Source: Streptomyces sp. NBC_00659
Lineage (GTDB): Bacteria; Actinomycetota; Actinomycetes; Streptomycetales; Streptomycetaceae
Assembly (NCBI RefSeq): GCF_036226925.1
Contig: NZ_CP109031.1
Location: 7,812,001 to 7,876,000, forward strand
Length of the DNA: 64,000 bases
Direction of reading: 5' to 3'
Shown one piece after another: positions 295 to 9,305 of the stretch. How positions within the stretch are numbered: position 1 is the first letter of the stretch; each line of letters opens with the position of its first letter. The notes under the pieces were generated by a model that was not told where the DNA came from, did not search any database, and worked only from the letters and a program-made list of their open reading frames with translations. Made by a program: the position numbers and the translations under genes.

Positions 295-1344
295 ATGGAG
301 AGCAAGCTGAAACCCAAGCTCGTGTTCGTACACGGCATCGGCGGGCCGCGGGATCCGGACGAACAACTGATGGAGTGGAAGCGGGCGTTGGCTGGCGGCG
401 CGCGGGCCGCGAAGCTCGCCTCCGACATCTCCGCACTGACCATGGACTGGCTGGCGGACTGCTCCTTCGCCTACTACGGCGACCTGTTCGCCGACGATGA
501 GCCGCAGAGCGTGGGCGGCCCGGACGACCTCGACGACGAGGAAGCGGCCATTGTCCTTGGACTCCTCGCCGAGTTCCTCGAAGAGGAGGCTGCTCGGCCG
601 GAGAACCAGGGCGACAGGGCGCTGGCCCGCGTACGCGCCCAGTTGAGCCCCGACGGCCAGCCGCAGGGTGTCGTCGGAGCCGGGCGTCACCTCTGGGCGG
701 TGGCGACCGCGGTGGTCGCGGTGCCGGGAGTGGCCCATGCGGCTCGTTGGGCGACGGCCAGTGACGTACTCCGCACGTGGTCCCAGCCCGCGCGCTACCT
801 GCGACGCAAGGACAAGGACGCTCAGAAGACGACGCTCGACGAGCGGATCAGGGCCCGGGTCCTGGCGTGTCTGGACCCCGCACGGCCCACCGTCGTGGTC
901 GGCCACTCCCTGGGCAGCGTCGTCGCCTTCGAGACGCTGGCGTCCTACGAGGGTCCTGTGCCGCTGCTGGTCACCATCGGTTCACCGATCGCGACCAGCG
1001 GACTCGTCTGGCCGCGGCTCAGGCCGCGGCCGCCTGCCACCCCCGACTGTGTCGATCGCTGGCTGGACTTCTGGGACGGCGACGACCTGATCGTGCCGCG
1101 GCGCAAACTCGCCAATCGCGTCCAGCCGAACGAACGAGGGGTCAAACCGACGCCGCGGCAATTTGAATCCCGTATGTGGTGGGCCCATGGGGCGACCACA
1201 TACCTGGGGCGCGCCGAGGTCGCGGAGCCGGTGATGCGGATGCTCTCCGCCGTGTCCGCCGCTACGGACGCCTCCGCCGGGACGAACTCCCCTGCCGGTA
1301 CGGACGCTTCTGCCGGAACAGCCGCCCCCGCGGCCGGTTCATGA
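295..1344 (+). CDS. Alpha/beta hydrolase, first gene of the VMAP-type operon
   Basis: The protein has about 349 residues. It opens with a lipase-like beta strand (LVFVHGIGG, residues 8-16) and has a nucleophile elbow GHSLGS with Ser205 as the likely catalytic serine, followed by helix VVAFETL. The last 30 residues are Ala/Ser/Thr/Gly-rich low complexity. I chose ATG 295, preceded by a purine-rich AAGGGG; an open frame runs back to 166 but reads poorly. The stop overlaps the next start (ATGA at 1341), so it is translationally coupled to the caspase-like gene. No signal peptide is visible, so it should act in the cytoplasm. In conflict operons such hydrolases can be effectors attacking lipids or esters; that role is inference, and the substrate is unknown. 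Confidence 0.75.
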   Translation: MESKLKPKLVFVHGIGGPRDPDEQLMEWKRALAGGARAAKLASDISALTMDWLADCSFAYYGDLFADDEPQSVGGPDDLDDEEAAIVLGLLAEFLEEEAARPENQGDRALARVRAQLSPDGQPQGVVGAGRHLWAVATAVVAVPGVAHAARWATASDVLRTWSQPARYLRRKDKDAQKTTLDERIRARVLACLDPARPTVVVGHSLGSVVAFETLASYEGPVPLLVTIGSPIATSGLVWPRLRPRPPATPDCVDRWLDFWDGDDLIVPRRKLANRVQPNERGVKPTPRQFESRMWWAHGATTYLGRAEVAEPVMRMLSAVSAATDASAGTNSPAGTDASAGTAAPAAGS

Positions 1345-3470
1345 CCGCAGCCCGGCCGACGACGACGGTCCGGCACGCCCTGGTTGTCGCCACCCAGTGC
1401 CCGGCCGCGCGGCAGCATCTCAGCAACCTCGTCACCAGGGCCGAGGAGTTGCACGAACTCCTCACCGATCCGGAGATCGGTGCCTGCGTGCCCAGCGACC
1501 CCGACGGCGGCCCCGTACTGCGGTCCGGCAAGGTCTCCGGACGGCAGATCGAGGACGCGGTCCGGGCGGCGGCGCGCCGGGCGCATGAAGCGGGCGCCGA
1601 ACTGGTCCTCGCCTTCCTCGGTCACGGTCAGACGCCGATGGGCGACGCGACGCTCTACTACATGGCGGACGACACCCTGGCGGGGGACGCGGCCAGTTCC
1701 GTCCAGGTCGGAAAGCTCGTCGCCGACGCCGGGGACCTGCCCGGCGTCAAAGGGGTGATCACGCTCATCGACACGTGCCACGCCGGCGCCGGCGTCCCGG
1801 ACGCGAAAGCACTGGCAGGGGGCTTCGGCCTCGGGAACAACAGACACTCGCTGCTCATGGCGGCGTCGGCTCACCAGAAGGCGTACGACCTCGACTTCAG
1901 CCGCGAACTCGCGTCCCTGCTGCGCCACGGCATCCCGGACGGCGGTGAGCTGCTGCGAGCGGGCGCCCTCAAAATGGCACTGACGAACCGAATCCTGAAG
2001 CAGAACTGCGAGACGTCCGGCCGGGACGGGGACCCGGACGCAGTCGAGGAACTGTGGGTGGCGCTGAACGTACAACGGCCGAGTTGGAGACCCAGCCGCC
2101 ACATCGGCGTCCTCGGCAGCCAGGACCTCGGCGAGGCACTGGCCGCATGGCCGGACCACCCGGCCCCGGCCGGGGGCTGGAACCCGCCGGCACTGCGCGG
2201 GCTCCGCGAGCAGGCGGCGGCCTCCGAAGCACCCGGAGCCCTGCGGGTACGGCAGGTGGCCGACGGGCTGCTGGACGCGGGTACCACGGTGGACATGGTC
2301 CACTCGTGGGCCGGCCGGGCTGTCACCACCCCGGCTCTGCGGAGCGTGGCCGCCGACCTGACCGCCGCCTACGACGCGGCCGATCCGTCATTCGATCCGC
2401 TGCGTCCGCCGAAGTGGATCGAGGGCACGGACCTGTTGCGGTACATACTCGAACACGCGGCGCTACGCGTATCCGTCACCGGCACTCCCGTGGTGCGCCT
2501 GGCGCAGGCAGTGGCCGCCATCGCCGACCGGTGTGACCTCGACTCCGAAGACCAACTGGTCGACGCCTGGGCGAAGCGCGTGCACGGAGTCGTCGAACTC
2601 AGTGATGCCGTGGCGCGACAGGCCGCACTGCGTCTGGACCGGACCTGGCGGCTGGTCATCAGCCTGCACACCGCGCGGATCGACTGGCCGGAATCGCTGT
2701 CGGTGTGGCTGCACGACGGGGAGCGCGGCGAGCACCATGAGGAGTTCCCTTGCGAACCCACCCGGGCCGGAGTCGAGGCCCGGCTCCCGGAGATCATCGG
2801 CTGGGCGTGGAAGAAGGTCCCGGAAGGCGCCGGGATCAAGAACATCGACGTGGTGGTCCCCGCTCCGCTCCTGCTGACCTGGGAGCCCGAGAAGGCGTCC
2901 GCCGGCCGATCCCCGCTGGGCGCCGAGCACACGGTGGTGCTGCGCTGGGCAGGACGACTCGCCGTCCCGGGCTACCTCGCCGGTATGAACGAGAGGGACC
3001 GGGACCGGCTGAAGAAGCTGGACGAACAACATCTCGGTGACGGCCACGCACCGGTCGACTGGCTGGCCGACGGCGACATCCGGGACACGGCGCTGCTGGC
3101 AGAGCGCCTGGGCTGGAGGGTCTACGACCGGGCCATCGGCCTCGACCACCGTCCGCGGCACCTTGCGGAGCTGGTGGAGACCCTGCTGGCCCACACCCCC
3201 ATCCTGCTGTGGCCGCGCACGGACGCCGATGTGGACGGCCGGGGATACGACTGCCTGGACGCGTACTGGGAGCAGCTGCCCGAACAGTTCATCGAGGCGT
3301 ACCGGCGTCGTTGGCGTGCCGAGGTGGGCGGACCCGCGCGTCCGGCGCGACCGGGCGACGAGCACCTCGCGGACCTGGCCGGAATCCGGGCCGCCTGGCA
3401 CGACCTGGACTGGCTCGACTTCTGCCGCTGGTTCGAGCAGCACCCCCCGACCAATCAGTGGAGCGCGTGA
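1341..3470 (+). CDS. Caspase-like peptidase fused to a VMAP-type C-terminal domain
   Basis: The protein has about 709 residues. Residues 10-240 form a caspase-like (clan CD) domain: a first strand HALVVAT, then FLGHGQT with catalytic His95, then LIDTCHAGAG with catalytic Cys146. Both dyad residues are present, so it should be an active cysteine peptidase. The rest is a long region with the look of the VMAP middle and C-terminal domains (block VVVPAPLLLTWEP, then PLGAEHTVVLRWAG, and late TPILLWPR). In published comparative genomics of vWA-MoxR systems the VMAP protein bridges an effector domain to the NTPase/vWA pair. Start ATG 1341 overlaps the upstream stop by four bases, and the stop overlaps the AAA+ start. 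Family assignment is from memory of these blocks, not a search. Confidence 0.75.
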   Translation: MTAARPTTTVRHALVVATQCPAARQHLSNLVTRAEELHELLTDPEIGACVPSDPDGGPVLRSGKVSGRQIEDAVRAAARRAHEAGAELVLAFLGHGQTPMGDATLYYMADDTLAGDAASSVQVGKLVADAGDLPGVKGVITLIDTCHAGAGVPDAKALAGGFGLGNNRHSLLMAASAHQKAYDLDFSRELASLLRHGIPDGGELLRAGALKMALTNRILKQNCETSGRDGDPDAVEELWVALNVQRPSWRPSRHIGVLGSQDLGEALAAWPDHPAPAGGWNPPALRGLREQAAASEAPGALRVRQVADGLLDAGTTVDMVHSWAGRAVTTPALRSVAADLTAAYDAADPSFDPLRPPKWIEGTDLLRYILEHAALRVSVTGTPVVRLAQAVAAIADRCDLDSEDQLVDAWAKRVHGVVELSDAVARQAALRLDRTWRLVISLHTARIDWPESLSVWLHDGERGEHHEEFPCEPTRAGVEARLPEIIGWAWKKVPEGAGIKNIDVVVPAPLLLTWEPEKASAGRSPLGAEHTVVLRWAGRLAVPGYLAGMNERDRDRLKKLDEQHLGDGHAPVDWLADGDIRDTALLAERLGWRVYDRAIGLDHRPRHLAELVETLLAHTPILLWPRTDADVDGRGYDCLDAYWEQLPEQFIEAYRRRWRAEVGGPARPARPGDEHLADLAGIRAAWHDLDWLDFCRWFEQHPPTNQWSA

Positions 3471-4465
3471 TGTCCTGGAACACGTACTACGTCGGAGACG
3501 GCGAACCTCGTGATGTCACCCTTGCCGATCCTCCCCCGTGGCGTACCTTCCCCCGCACCTCCGACCAGCGCGCGTTCCAGCCGCCGGAGGGGCTGACCGA
3601 CGCTGTCAACGCCGCCCTCTACCTCCACCGGCCCCTCCTGATCACCGGATCCGCGGGTACGGGGAAGTCCACCGTCATCGAGCAGGTCGCCGAGGAACTG
3701 AAGCTCAGGCGGGTGCTGCGCTGGCCCATCACGTCGCGCAGCACGCTGACGGACGCGCTGTACCAGTACGACGCGCTCGGCCACATCCATTCCCTGCGCC
3801 TGCGCCAAACGCCCTACGAGGGGCGGAGCAAGGGACGGAACGGCGGCCGTGGCCCCGCCAGGACCGAGCGCCCCCAAGCCGTCGACGACATCGCGCCGTT
3901 CCTCAAACTCGGGCCTCTGGGCACCGCGCTGCTGCCAGGGGACCGGCCCCGGGCGTTGCTCATCGACGAGATCGACAAGAGTGATCTCGACCTGCCGAGC
4001 GATCTCCTCGATGTGCTGGAGCGCGGGGAGTTCGAGATTCCCGAACTCGTACGCCACCGCCTGCGGCAGGTGCCGGTCCGCGAGTGGGGCGAGAGGGAGC
4101 GGACCTACCTGGTGCGGGACGGCCACGTGCAGTGCACGCGCTTTCCGTTCATCGTGATGACCAGCAACGGCGAACGCGACTTCCCCGCGCCCTTCCTGCG
4201 CCGGTGCATCCGCTACACCATGCCCGCGCCGACCGCCGACATGCTCCGCGACGCGGTGGCCGCCCACCTGCGGCGTGAGCTGCCCGACTCCGGCCCGGTG
4301 CCGGATCTCATCAAGGAATTCGCCGACCGTGTCGCAAGGGGCGATTCCCTGGCGGTCGACCAACTCCTCAACGCGGTACGACTGATCAGCGACGCACAAG
4401 CGCCCAGTGGCGCGCAGCGCGACCGGATCCTCGACCTGCTCCTCCGTGACCTCTCCGGTGGCTGA
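3470..4465 (+). CDS. MoxR-like AAA+ ATPase
   Basis: The protein has about 331 residues. The Walker A motif is GSAGTGKST (about residues 61-69) and Walker B is LLIDEIDKSD. A sensor-1 strand IVMTSNGERDFPAPFLRRC carries the Asn and a following Arg pair. The spacing and the phrase DEIDKSDLDLPSDLL are typical of MoxR-type ATPases that work with vWA proteins as chaperone-like remodelers. Start ATG 3470 shares one base with the preceding TGA; GTG 3467 is an equal alternative. It sits between the caspase-VMAP gene and the vWA gene, the classic ternary arrangement. By family analogy it would use ATP to gate or load the effector; that is inferred. Confidence 0.85.
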   Translation: MSWNTYYVGDGEPRDVTLADPPPWRTFPRTSDQRAFQPPEGLTDAVNAALYLHRPLLITGSAGTGKSTVIEQVAEELKLRRVLRWPITSRSTLTDALYQYDALGHIHSLRLRQTPYEGRSKGRNGGRGPARTERPQAVDDIAPFLKLGPLGTALLPGDRPRALLIDEIDKSDLDLPSDLLDVLERGEFEIPELVRHRLRQVPVREWGERERTYLVRDGHVQCTRFPFIVMTSNGERDFPAPFLRRCIRYTMPAPTADMLRDAVAAHLRRELPDSGPVPDLIKEFADRVARGDSLAVDQLLNAVRLISDAQAPSGAQRDRILDLLLRDLSGG

Positions 4466-7400
4466 GGCTCTCGCATCGCTGGTCCGCGTGCTGGCCGGGG
4501 CCATGGGTGAAGACGCGGACGCCACAGCGATCGCCGATGCCCTGTGGCTGGCCGCGGCCTCCGCCACCACCCCGGCAGCACTGGGCGCCGGCCTGCCCGA
4601 ACCAGCGCCCTCCGAAGCCGCGGAGGTGTGCCCCGAGCCACCGTCGGCCCCCGAAGCCGACGCGCCTGCCCCGCCGCACCGGGCGGAGGACACGGACACG
4701 GCCGTTCTCTACGAGAGGCTGCCGTACGCCCCACCCGCGCCGGGCACCTCGATCACGGTTCCGGGGGGCCGGGATCTGCCCCGTGCCATGGAACTGCGCA
4801 GAGCGCTGCGCCCCTTCAAGCGCCGCTTCCCCCAGGGTCGACGCTCGGAACTGGACCTGGACGCGACCGTCCGCGACTACCGCCGCACCGGCGAGCTCAC
4901 CCCGGTGCTGGGCCCCAGCCCCGAGCCCTGGTTCGAACTGCTGCTCGTCGTCGACGCATCGCCCACCATGGCCGTCTGGCAGAACACCAACTCGGAGTTC
5001 GCCACCCTCCTGGCCGGACTGGGCGCGTTCCGACGCGTCCGGACGTGGAGCCTGAGGCCGGGCACTGATCCAGTGGTCACCGACCACCAGGACAGGCGGG
5101 TCGCCCCCGGGCAGGCCGTTTCCGCCGACGGCAGACGCCTGGTGTTGGTGCTCTCCGACTGCGTGGCGCCCGGCTGGAGGCGACCGGAAACATGGCAGTT
5201 GCTACGCCGTTGGGGAACGAAAGGCCCCGTCGCGCTGCTCAACCCGCTCCCCGGGCGCCTGTGGCACCGCACCGGCCTCGACCTCCCCGCGATCCGCGTC
5301 GGACAGCGACGGCCCGCCCTTAGGAACGCCGACCTGACCTTTCACGTCCCCCTGCTGCTCCGTACTCTGCCCGGCGCCGAGGACGCGGACTGGCAGGCGT
5401 TGCCCACGCTCACGTTCTCGCCGCATTCCCTCGCCCGCTGGGCGGACACCTTCATGCGCGGATCGCCCCACGGGCACGACGCGGTCCTGGTCCCCAGCAC
5501 CGGCATCGTGCCCAGCCCCTTTCCGACGCCGAACGCCGCGCGACACACGGGCCCCGACCCCACGGAGATGTTCCTGCGCACGGGGTCGCCCTCGGCCGTA
5601 CGGCTAGCCGCCCTGTGCAGCCCGTTTCGCAGGCTGAGCCTGCCGCTCATGCACCTGGTCCGTCAGCAGCTCCTTCCCGAGGCGTGCGTCGGCGATCTGG
5701 CCGAGCTGCTGACGATCCCCGGCGTGACCGTCGAGGCGCACGAGGACGGGCCACCGGTCATCGTCTTCGACGATGCGACACGCGAGCGGCTCGCCTCCCG
5801 CCTCAGCCGCCGGGACGCCTGGCGCACGTATGACGCTCTCAGCAGGCACATCGCCGCCAGGGCACCCGGCGGCGTGGAGGACATCCAGGCGACCGCGACG
5901 TTCGAGCCGGACTCGGTCCCGCCCGCGCTGTACCCCTTCGCGCGTGCGTCCAACGAGTTGCTGACATTGCTGCGGGAAGGCGGACCGGTGCGGCCCGCAC
6001 TGGTGCCGGGAATTTCGGAGTTCCCCGTGTTACAGCCCGACCCGGACCCGGGTCAGCGCCTGCCCGACCCGGCACAGAGCACCGCGCTGCTTATCGGCGT
6101 TTCCCGTTATCCGAGAGGCGACTCGTTGCCTGGCGTGAACGCCGATCTTGAGGAGATGCGGTCCTATCTCACCTCGCCGGAAGGCTGGAACCTGCCGGCC
6201 GACCGCTGCGTCTCGCTTGTCGACCCCCGCAGGGCGAGCGAGGTCCTCGAAGAGATCATGCGGGCGGGCGACACGGCCGACACCGTGCTGCTCTACTTCG
6301 GCGGGCACGGGTCGGTTGACCTCAGGGGCCAGGCCACGTGGCGTCTCTCGGGAGAAGGAGTCGATGAGTGGCATACCTCCGGGAGGCTGGAGTTCCTCGA
6401 CGTCGCACGGGTCCTCGATGAGTCGAGGGCTCGTCACGCCATGCTGATCCTCGACCACGACGGGGGCGCGGAGGCTACCCGGGCCATGCGTCGTGACCTG
6501 TATGAAGGGGTCGGGCAAGTAGTCTCGAGAGCACAGGTGTTGTCCGTAGGAAGTGCACGGGGCGCCTTGAACAGGGGACCGCTGACGCAACAGCTCCTGA
6601 GGGTCACGAGCCAGGGAGTGCCAAGAGGTCCCGAGTTCCTGGACCTGTCCGCCATGGTCAGGGCCTTGAGCGGGCTCGATACATGGTCGCGCTCCCAGTT
6701 CGTTCTCTTCGGTGGGGGTCGTTCAGCCCCAGCCTTCGCGCGCAATCGGGCCTGGAAACCCCAGGTGTCCTCGACCGGGCTCCACGAAGACGAGGGCGTC
6801 GGCGCCACCGAGCCGGTCGACCCCATGTACGAGTCGGTCCAGCAACAACTTCAGGCGGCTCTTCCTCGTACCTACCAAGGCGTGTACCGGAGAGAGGCGA
6901 ACCGTCTTCTGCGCGCGCTACTCGCCTTCGCGGAGAGTTTCATCGACGGAGGCCAGCAGGCCGACAGCGAGATGACACTGGTCGACGCGGCTCAGGACTT
7001 CCTCGCCGATCGGGGGATCATCACCGAACGCGAGGTGCCTCGCGACGATCAACGTGTGGATGTCGTCTGGTCTTCAGAAGCCGGCCTGTTCGAAATCCAC
7101 ACAACGCGGGACGGAGCCGCTCGCCATTGGAACGTCGAACCCTCGGTCAGCTTCGAACTCGTGCTGGATCGAGAGGGGCGGGCCTGGATGTCCGATCTCG
7201 TCGACTGTGTCACCGCGGATACCTCAGAGACCTTCCCCGGTAATGAGAAATCGTGTCTCGTGATCATGCACCTGCCTGTCACGCTGCACCGCGTCCACGA
7301 CCCCGAGGCAGCCGTCGACGAGGCTGAGCCCGAGACGGCGGATGCGCCCTGGGGCCTGAGGTGGTTCACCCGCAACGCCCTGTCGGACGCGGTGGATTCG

Positions 7401-7823
7401 GCCTGTGAGCGACTCCTTGGTGAAGCCGTCGCGGACGAGTTCGCCGACGACGTCATGGACGGCGTCTGGCCGCTGAACGGGGTGGCGCTACCACCCGGTC
7501 TCACGGACGTGACGATCCAGGACGTCACTCCGGACACCCAGTCGATCGTCTGGGACACCGTGGAGGAGTACGAGGAAGGCCTGGTTCTCGGGCAGGTGAC
7601 GGTGGACGTCCGACTCATTCTCGAAGGCCTCATGCACAACCGCGACTATGACCTCGCCCTGCCCGAAGTGTCGCTGCTGAACAGGGTCAACGATCATATG
7701 GTGGAGGTGCATGTGGAGCGGAGCGCACAACTGGTCTTCGACGCCCGGCGGGAATCGGAGGATGTCGAGCTGGAGTTCCGCGGCACGAACGCTCCCGAGC
7801 CCAACCCGCACGACCTCAGGTGA
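4458..7823 (+). CDS. SAV_2336/vWA protein with a degenerate caspase domain
   Basis: The protein has about 1121 residues. The N-terminal half is SAV_2336-like: a helical start, a Pro/Ala-rich linker, RRALRPFKRR, then a vWA-like core opening LLVVDASPTM, where the MIDAS motif is DxSxT rather than DxSxS. Residues about 540-700 are a caspase fold (ALLIGVSRYP; YFGGHGS with His617), but the Cys position reads LDHDGG, putting Asp668 where the nucleophile should be, so this domain should be catalytically dead. The last 300 residues are unassigned. GTG 4458 overlaps the ATPase stop by eight bases; an upstream ATG at 4407 would bury 17 residues in the ATPase gene. It is the last gene of the operon, and I see no strong terminator after it. 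Confidence 0.75.
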   Translation: MAEALASLVRVLAGAMGEDADATAIADALWLAAASATTPAALGAGLPEPAPSEAAEVCPEPPSAPEADAPAPPHRAEDTDTAVLYERLPYAPPAPGTSITVPGGRDLPRAMELRRALRPFKRRFPQGRRSELDLDATVRDYRRTGELTPVLGPSPEPWFELLLVVDASPTMAVWQNTNSEFATLLAGLGAFRRVRTWSLRPGTDPVVTDHQDRRVAPGQAVSADGRRLVLVLSDCVAPGWRRPETWQLLRRWGTKGPVALLNPLPGRLWHRTGLDLPAIRVGQRRPALRNADLTFHVPLLLRTLPGAEDADWQALPTLTFSPHSLARWADTFMRGSPHGHDAVLVPSTGIVPSPFPTPNAARHTGPDPTEMFLRTGSPSAVRLAALCSPFRRLSLPLMHLVRQQLLPEACVGDLAELLTIPGVTVEAHEDGPPVIVFDDATRERLASRLSRRDAWRTYDALSRHIAARAPGGVEDIQATATFEPDSVPPALYPFARASNELLTLLREGGPVRPALVPGISEFPVLQPDPDPGQRLPDPAQSTALLIGVSRYPRGDSLPGVNADLEEMRSYLTSPEGWNLPADRCVSLVDPRRASEVLEEIMRAGDTADTVLLYFGGHGSVDLRGQATWRLSGEGVDEWHTSGRLEFLDVARVLDESRARHAMLILDHDGGAEATRAMRRDLYEGVGQVVSRAQVLSVGSARGALNRGPLTQQLLRVTSQGVPRGPEFLDLSAMVRALSGLDTWSRSQFVLFGGGRSAPAFARNRAWKPQVSSTGLHEDEGVGATEPVDPMYESVQQQLQAALPRTYQGVYRREANRLLRALLAFAESFIDGGQQADSEMTLVDAAQDFLADRGIITEREVPRDDQRVDVVWSSEAGLFEIHTTRDGAARHWNVEPSVSFELVLDREGRAWMSDLVDCVTADTSETFPGNEKSCLVIMHLPVTLHRVHDPEAAVDEAEPETADAPWGLRWFTRNALSDAVDSACERLLGEAVADEFADDVMDGVWPLNGVALPPGLTDVTIQDVTPDTQSIVWDTVEEYEEGLVLGQVTVDVRLILEGLMHNRDYDLALPEVSLLNRVNDHMVEVHVERSAQLVFDARRESEDVELEFRGTNAPEPNPHDLR

Positions 7824-8503: not shown

Positions 8504-8551
8504 AGGACTCATAATCCGTCGGCCGTGGGTTCGAGTCCCACCCGCCCCACC
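8504..8551 (+). other. 3' half of a CAU-anticodon tRNA, likely attachment-site scar
   Basis: The sequence holds an anticodon loop CTCATAA (anticodon CAT), a perfect T-arm (GTGGG, loop TTCGAGT, CCCAC) and an acceptor 3' strand CCGCCCCA ending in CC. The 5' half is missing: the 40 bases upstream contain no D-arm and no GGGGCGG acceptor strand. A tRNA reduced to its 3' half is the standard scar left at the far end of an element that integrated in a tRNA gene. With the tRNA on the plus strand, the element would lie to the left, toward the VMAP operon. The intact tRNA would then be outside the window. Confidence 0.7.
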
Positions 8552-9305
8552 TTAGCCGTGTCCTGACCTGCGGAAACGCCTCATCGGGCGTTCGGATTTA
8601 GGACTTTGGGCCAACGGCGTGAATCCGCTGCGCGTGAGCTCAACAGCGTTGCCGCCAATGGTAGTTCGAACTGTTCTGGCCTGCACGGATGTCTTGGCTC
8701 ATAGCGGGGGAAGCCGCCGCATGTGGCCTCTGTGAGTGGCTGGGCGCCGAATTCGGGACGTTGGCAGGACGCAGGGAATCGGAAGGGGCTACCGCGGCGC
8801 CATCCTGCCCGACGCTGCTGGGGTGGGCGGCGGAGCGGCAGCAGGCGATCAGGGTGCTGCGTGACACTTGGATCACTGGGCTGCCACCAGACTGCGGTGC
8901 GGGAGAAACGGCCCGTACTGAAAACGGCCCAGGAACCTTCTCACGTCGGCGTCTGTTCCGATGGAGGTATGCCATCTACGAGGGGCACAGGGAGTGGAGG
9001 CCGGGCAGGTCGGTTGAGGCTCCCACCGTTGGTAGAGGTGTATGGCAACGAGATCATCGTGCTGCCACCGTTCTGCTTGCGCGGAGAGAACGTGCCTGGC
9101 CCGCGGACAGGAACAGCGAAGGGAGGATCACCTTCGCTCGCGTGGAGAGCACCGAGGACGGCCGTGCCGCGGCCTGTGGCGTGGCGGTGCTCTCCCGACG
9201 CGGTCAGGGGAGTGCCACCTGCGGGTTCACCCCCATACCGAAGAGCGGCAATGCCGGCCGATCTCGACAGCCTGCCTGGCCGTGCAGTTCGGCGCCAACT
9301 CCAGG
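8552..9305. other. Stretch with no recognisable gene
   Basis: Between the tRNA fragment and the LacI-type gene I see only low-quality open frames with no family resemblance or plausible start sites. If the tRNA scar is an island edge, this is the first core or older sequence outside it. Confidence 0.35.

Follow-up and report, generated by a model that had tools for sequence, protein, structure and literature searches.

The 64,000-nucleotide window of Streptomyces sp. NBC_00659 analysed here (contig NZ_CP109031.1, positions 7,812,001 to 7,876,000) carries, within its first 7.8 kb, an operon of four overlapping plus-strand genes that is almost certainly a VMAP system. As read from the list of open reading frames (ORFs), the genes encode, in this order, an alpha/beta hydrolase, a caspase-VMAP protein, a MoxR-like AAA+ ATPase and a SAV_2336/vWA protein. 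The genome is a single contig of 9.66 Mb, and close relatives of the proteins are named as Streptomyces. The operon as a whole is probably best explained as a caspase-type VMAP ternary conflict system in which the caspase and the hydrolase would form the output, and the MoxR and vWA proteins the switch. The VMAP ternary system, with its strict gene order and MoxR motifs, was defined by Kaur et al. in 2020 (PMC7159879; statements on this and the other papers cited refer to their available text).

The VMAP domains lie in gene 2 (1341..3470, plus strand), which encodes a protein of 709 residues with a caspase-like domain at about residues 14-218, followed by VMAP-M2 (PF19965, window 1944-2612) and VMAP-C (PF20028, window 2697-3350). 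In a Pfam profile search, VMAP-M2 scored 116.8 bits against a cut-off of 27.7, and VMAP-C 40.5 bits against a cut-off of 27. The catalytic residues His95 (codon 1623-1625) and Cys146 (codon 1776-1778), the latter in the motif D-T-C146-H, are unchanged in 20/20 aligned sequences, and on these residues the caspase looks active. Gene 3 (3470..4465, plus strand, with an alternative GTG start at 3467) encodes the MoxR-like ATPase, in which AAA_5 reaches 27.1 bits against a Pfam cut-off of 22, while MadB_ATPase stops at 53.2 bits, far under its cut-off of 475. The N-terminal motifs WNTYYVGDG and PPPWR, of the W..YY.G.G and PPWR types, have equivalents in 18/18 loci and agree with those published for the MoxR proteins of VMAP systems, except that the spacing from W to G is one residue longer (PMC7159879).

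Gene 4 (4446..7823, plus strand; frame open from 4407) encodes the SAV_2336/vWA protein of 1125 residues, in which SAV_2336_NTERM (NF041121) was found at 335.4 bits against a cut-off of 200 (5.8e-100). Its start is probably GTG 4446, because a 97% identical protein of S. gramineus (P0002, 1125 residues) starts at the equivalent site. The protein contains a second caspase-like domain (6078..6668), which has lost the cysteine. Where the VMAP caspase has D-T-C146-H, this domain reads D-H-D: Asp685 (codon 6459-6461) takes the place of the cysteine, and His634 is encoded at 6306-6308 (residues numbered from 4407). Pfam Peptidase_C14 was matched at 27.5 against a cut-off of 21.4, and residues of about 558-754 match NF047832 (3.6e-27, 95.2 bits), under the cut-off of 140. 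Among the window protein and its relatives P0001-P0021, the catalytic cysteine is present in 1/22 such domains, solely in P0012, and the histidine is kept in 17/22. The ~380 residues that follow the caspase-like domain are without a Pfam match; they include a tail region at 6816..7277, described from our own reading of its motifs, and a beta-rich C-terminal module at 7344..7808 that also terminates a NACHT protein and PIN_12 proteins (E 1e-56, 6e-8 and 1e-5). Gene 4 appears to encode no evident active effector enzyme.

Gene 1 (295..1344, plus strand; 349 residues) is joined to gene 2 by an ATGA overlap (1341-1344) and encodes a protein whose predicted fold is that of an alpha/beta hydrolase. 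Ser205 of the G-H-S205-L-G elbow (codon 907-909), Asp261, Asp264 and His298 (codon 1186-1188) are unchanged in 20/20 aligned hydrolases. No evident leader peptide was seen, the first strand of the predicted structure beginning at residue 8. A first-pass annotation had read the operon as three VMAP-system core parts in overlapping genes, with an active-looking caspase and a leading alpha/beta hydrolase with an intact GHSLG elbow. These points hold, with VMAP-M2, VMAP-C, SAV_2336_NTERM and AAA_5 all above their cut-offs and the two VMAP domains in the C-terminal part of gene 2, where they had been placed. The domain account was correct for the VMAP-type core and overlooked the cysteine-less caspase-like domain of gene 4.

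A neighbourhood survey of 199 genomes from the genus, with the operon's own among them, used the VMAP protein and the hydrolase as queries; 5 candidates per genome were scored for the former and 10 for the latter, and weak cases may be missed. Full-length caspase-VMAP matches were found in 17 other genomes at 18 places (18/199 genomes counting own). Hydrolase matches above 200 bits were found in 19 other genomes at 20 places, namely the same 17 genomes together with G088 and G138, and the next matches scored 90 bits (G111) and 85 bits (G068). The order hydrolase, caspase-VMAP, MoxR, vWA is preserved in 17/17 other caspase-VMAP loci, among which the vWA frame of L098 is split and the vWA gene of L112 is cut by the contig end. 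The hydrolase is therefore a constant partner of the caspase-VMAP, a point that the first-pass annotation had put up for checking. Its further point, that two enzymes in one system would be a notable combination, does not survive the literature. Kaur et al. reported that an alpha/beta-hydrolase gene is always adjacent to caspase-VMAPs (PMC7159879), and the pairing of a caspase with a lipase-like hydrolase, published in 2020, is not a new combination.

VMAP-C was above the Pfam cut-off in 166/199 genomes, whereas few have the hydrolase, which argues that the hydrolase goes with the caspase and not with VMAP as such. The sole hydrolase match in the own genome is that of the window, and two more VMAP-C loci lie elsewhere in it (G000:C1:5850016 and 6334625; of the 3 matches in total, the third is presumably the window's). 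In G049, equal-scoring copies of the caspase-VMAP and the hydrolase lie near both contig ends (G049:C1:11315 and 10663808), probably as terminal inverted repeats of a linear chromosome. Across the 18 loci, the distance matrix of the hydrolase correlates with those of the caspase (0.77), VMAP-M2 (0.82), VMAP-C (0.63) and MoxR (0.67), each with 0/5000 permutations as high, and the core components correlate among themselves to a similar degree (0.66-0.81). These correlations indicate joint inheritance of hydrolase and core only, not contact, because shared descent alone can produce them. In G088 (L113) and G138 (L114), the hydrolase adjoins a caspase-TPR protein of 478-481 residues without VMAP-C; the L113 protein matches VMAP-M2 in part. 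In G068 (L145) and G111 (L115), a divergent hydrolase gene lies beside a caspase-STAND-like-TPR gene, whose protein likewise has no VMAP-C.

For the caspase-hydrolase output, a tentative mechanism is proposed. The VMAP-MoxR-vWA complex would be kept in an off state until the middle region of VMAP, the tail of the vWA protein or both detect an invader signal, upon which a MoxR-dependent rearrangement would free the VMAP caspase. The caspase would then license or cleave the partner hydrolase. This putative cytosolic esterase or phospholipase would attack membrane lipids or acyl-proteins of the infected cell, so that the invader is halted through cell death or arrest. The dead caspase and the tail of gene 4 would be an arm for sensing or docking, or a decoy, and no enzyme. 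Activation, substrate and the role of the operon in defence are what we infer here, as the first-pass annotation had already done for defence. Kaur et al. (2021, PMC8195603), in their list of effectors from related systems, describe alpha/beta-hydrolases as enzymes that hydrolyse membrane lipids. A bolder version, which we consider rather doubtful, takes the entire vWA arm (cysteine-less caspase, degenerate nuclease-like region and beta module) as catalytically dead and as a sensor or decoy. The lethal output would have moved to the constant pair of caspase and hydrolase, where the former would activate the latter, a lipase, in a protease-to-lipase death relay, and the beta module would be a sensing or docking part common to VMAP, NACHT and PIN-domain systems. 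If true, signalling would run in the opposite direction to that of Kaur et al. and in line with the alternative of PMC10907252, where, for diversity-generating retroelement (DGR) loci, the vWA protein was modelled as the sensor and the N-terminal enzyme of VMAP as the effector.

Several results weigh against the caspase-hydrolase reading. The N-terminus of gene 2 matches the caspase model NF047832 at 49.7 bits (3.1e-13), under the curated cut-off of 140, and a Pfam search gave no C14 match in this protein. Pfam VMAP-C has no match in G052 and G108 despite their full-length caspase-VMAP matches; from these sequences, the family is evidently divergent, and these two members are too divergent for the profile. 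No Pfam vWA model matches gene 4, so it is called vWA on the strength of its family and of the published description. In PADLOC, neither the hydrolase nor the caspase-VMAP was matched; gene 4 matched just a general 'caspase' model (2.4e-8), and MoxR had weak ATPase matches. No cleavage site was identified, some other vWA tails are possibly active and thus compatible with effector release too, and no experimental test of any VMAP system was met in the search listings and text passages of open-licence papers that were consulted. The remaining points concern the hydrolase. Every Pfam match of this protein is below cut-off, the best being Abhydrolase_1 (25.7 against 25.8) and the others at least 4 bits under. 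The lipid-acting DDHD domains, with those of Nir1/Nir2 (PITPNM) at the top, are the best structural match of its model in two programs (E 6.1e-4), but the template modelling (TM) scores are low (0.37/0.42), the root-mean-square deviation is 11.7, identity is 11-13%, and other esterases and thioesterases are almost tied, within ~1 Z of the DDHD match. The Pfam matches of the hydrolase, taken up to E 1, do not include DDHD, and a PF02862 search of the own genome missed it at E up to 10. The modelled resemblance is thus greatest, though not decisively, to DDHD domains.

In the effector-release model put forward by Kaur et al. (2020, PMC7159879), VMAP is the sensor and MoxR reorganises the complex. 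The vWA protein is then cut by the VMAP caspase, and its C-terminal domains, in this operon the dead caspase and the tail modules, would once freed act as dominant-negative effectors or decoys, with the hydrolase as an accessory. As an account of this operon the model seems rather unlikely, since the tail of gene 4 is here without a recognisable active enzyme. Tails also differ in 14/16 vWA proteins surveyed (FxsC/TIR-like in 7/16), and the retention of the hydrolase in 17/17 loci despite these changing tails suggests that it belongs to the constant machinery. Such constancy would equally be expected of a regulator, and the hydrolase could, as an esterase or thioesterase, set the threshold of activation by stripping the caspase, or some other component, of an acyl group or a different modification. 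We regard this as unlikely: we know of no such modification, and the argument must also hold for the related hydrolases beside the caspase-STAND-like and caspase-TPR proteins.

The surroundings of the operon bear on its status as an accessory locus. A 3'-half remnant of tRNA-Met(CAU) lies at 8505..8578 (plus strand) and a second copy at G000:C1:7810933-7811006 (L032:2933-3006), 9572 bp to the left and 1.07 kb before the window start, so that the operon lies between the two. A three-way alignment suggests that the remnants have ~130 nt of diverged downstream sequence in common, which the intact tRNA-Met gene (near C1:3329900) lacks. By their sequence they look like decayed attachment-site scars; no integrase was recognised among the listed ORFs of the bracketed segment, for which no profile search was made. 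Just upstream of the operon, a truncated alpha-glucosidase remnant was read by eye on the minus strand (L032 ~3450-4095, and into the window from 1 to ~95), and an apparently intact alpha-glucosidase ORF of 533 residues, also read by eye, lies ~9 kb to the left (L031:10200-11801). A role in mycelial development or programmed cell death instead of action against invaders, an idea favoured by the strong link of VMAP systems to multicellular bacteria (694/716 organisms; PMC7159879, Table 1), is very improbable, because the patchy presence of the operon within the genus (18/199 genomes), its varied vWA tails and the flanking tRNA remnants suit an accessory conflict locus.

On whether the vWA tail of VMAP systems is an effector or a sensor, the two published models disagree (PMC7159879, PMC10907252). 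The present operon offers a clean place to decide between them, because its vWA tail is without a recognisable active enzyme while the catalytic residues of both caspase and hydrolase are kept; the same lack of an evident active effector in gene 4 makes the operon of modest extra interest. If the caspase does license a lipase, this would be a bacterial protease-to-membrane death pathway. Such a pathway, if real, would parallel the logic of caspase-gasdermin systems.

Among known systems, the operon is closest to the VMAP ternary systems of PMC7159879, with which it shares the core components, the VMAP-MoxR-vWA order, the hydrolase neighbour and a vWA-fused caspase that is often inactive. In that account, ~70% of vWA-fused caspases are inactive, and such a caspase is accompanied almost always by both the hydrolase and a caspase-VMAP. 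No categorical difference from these systems is apparent in the available text, where the C-terminal module of gene 4, without a Pfam match, was not met. The caspase-TPR loci (G088, G138) and the caspase-STAND-like-TPR loci (G068, G111) resemble the operon in having a related hydrolase next to a caspase akin to that of VMAP, but BLAST of the surrounding 12-14 kb turned up no homologue of MoxR or vWA. The pair of G068 and G111 is divergent and includes a remote hydrolase (29-33% identity); NPHP3_N is above cut-off in L145 and just below it in L115. A trypsin-NACHT-AAA-TPR (NLR-like) protein of Streptomyces sp. 13-12-16 (L116 = L142, one record) shares the C-terminal module and also the middle region of gene 4 (E 1e-32), and the PIN_12 proteins L143 and L144 share the module. 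The beta-rich module (window 7344-7808) thus connects VMAP-system vWA, NACHT and PIN_12 proteins and may merit a family of its own. The NACHT and PIN_12 proteins differ in having no match to the SAV_2336/vWA part, and in them the module follows other domains of a catalytic or switch type.
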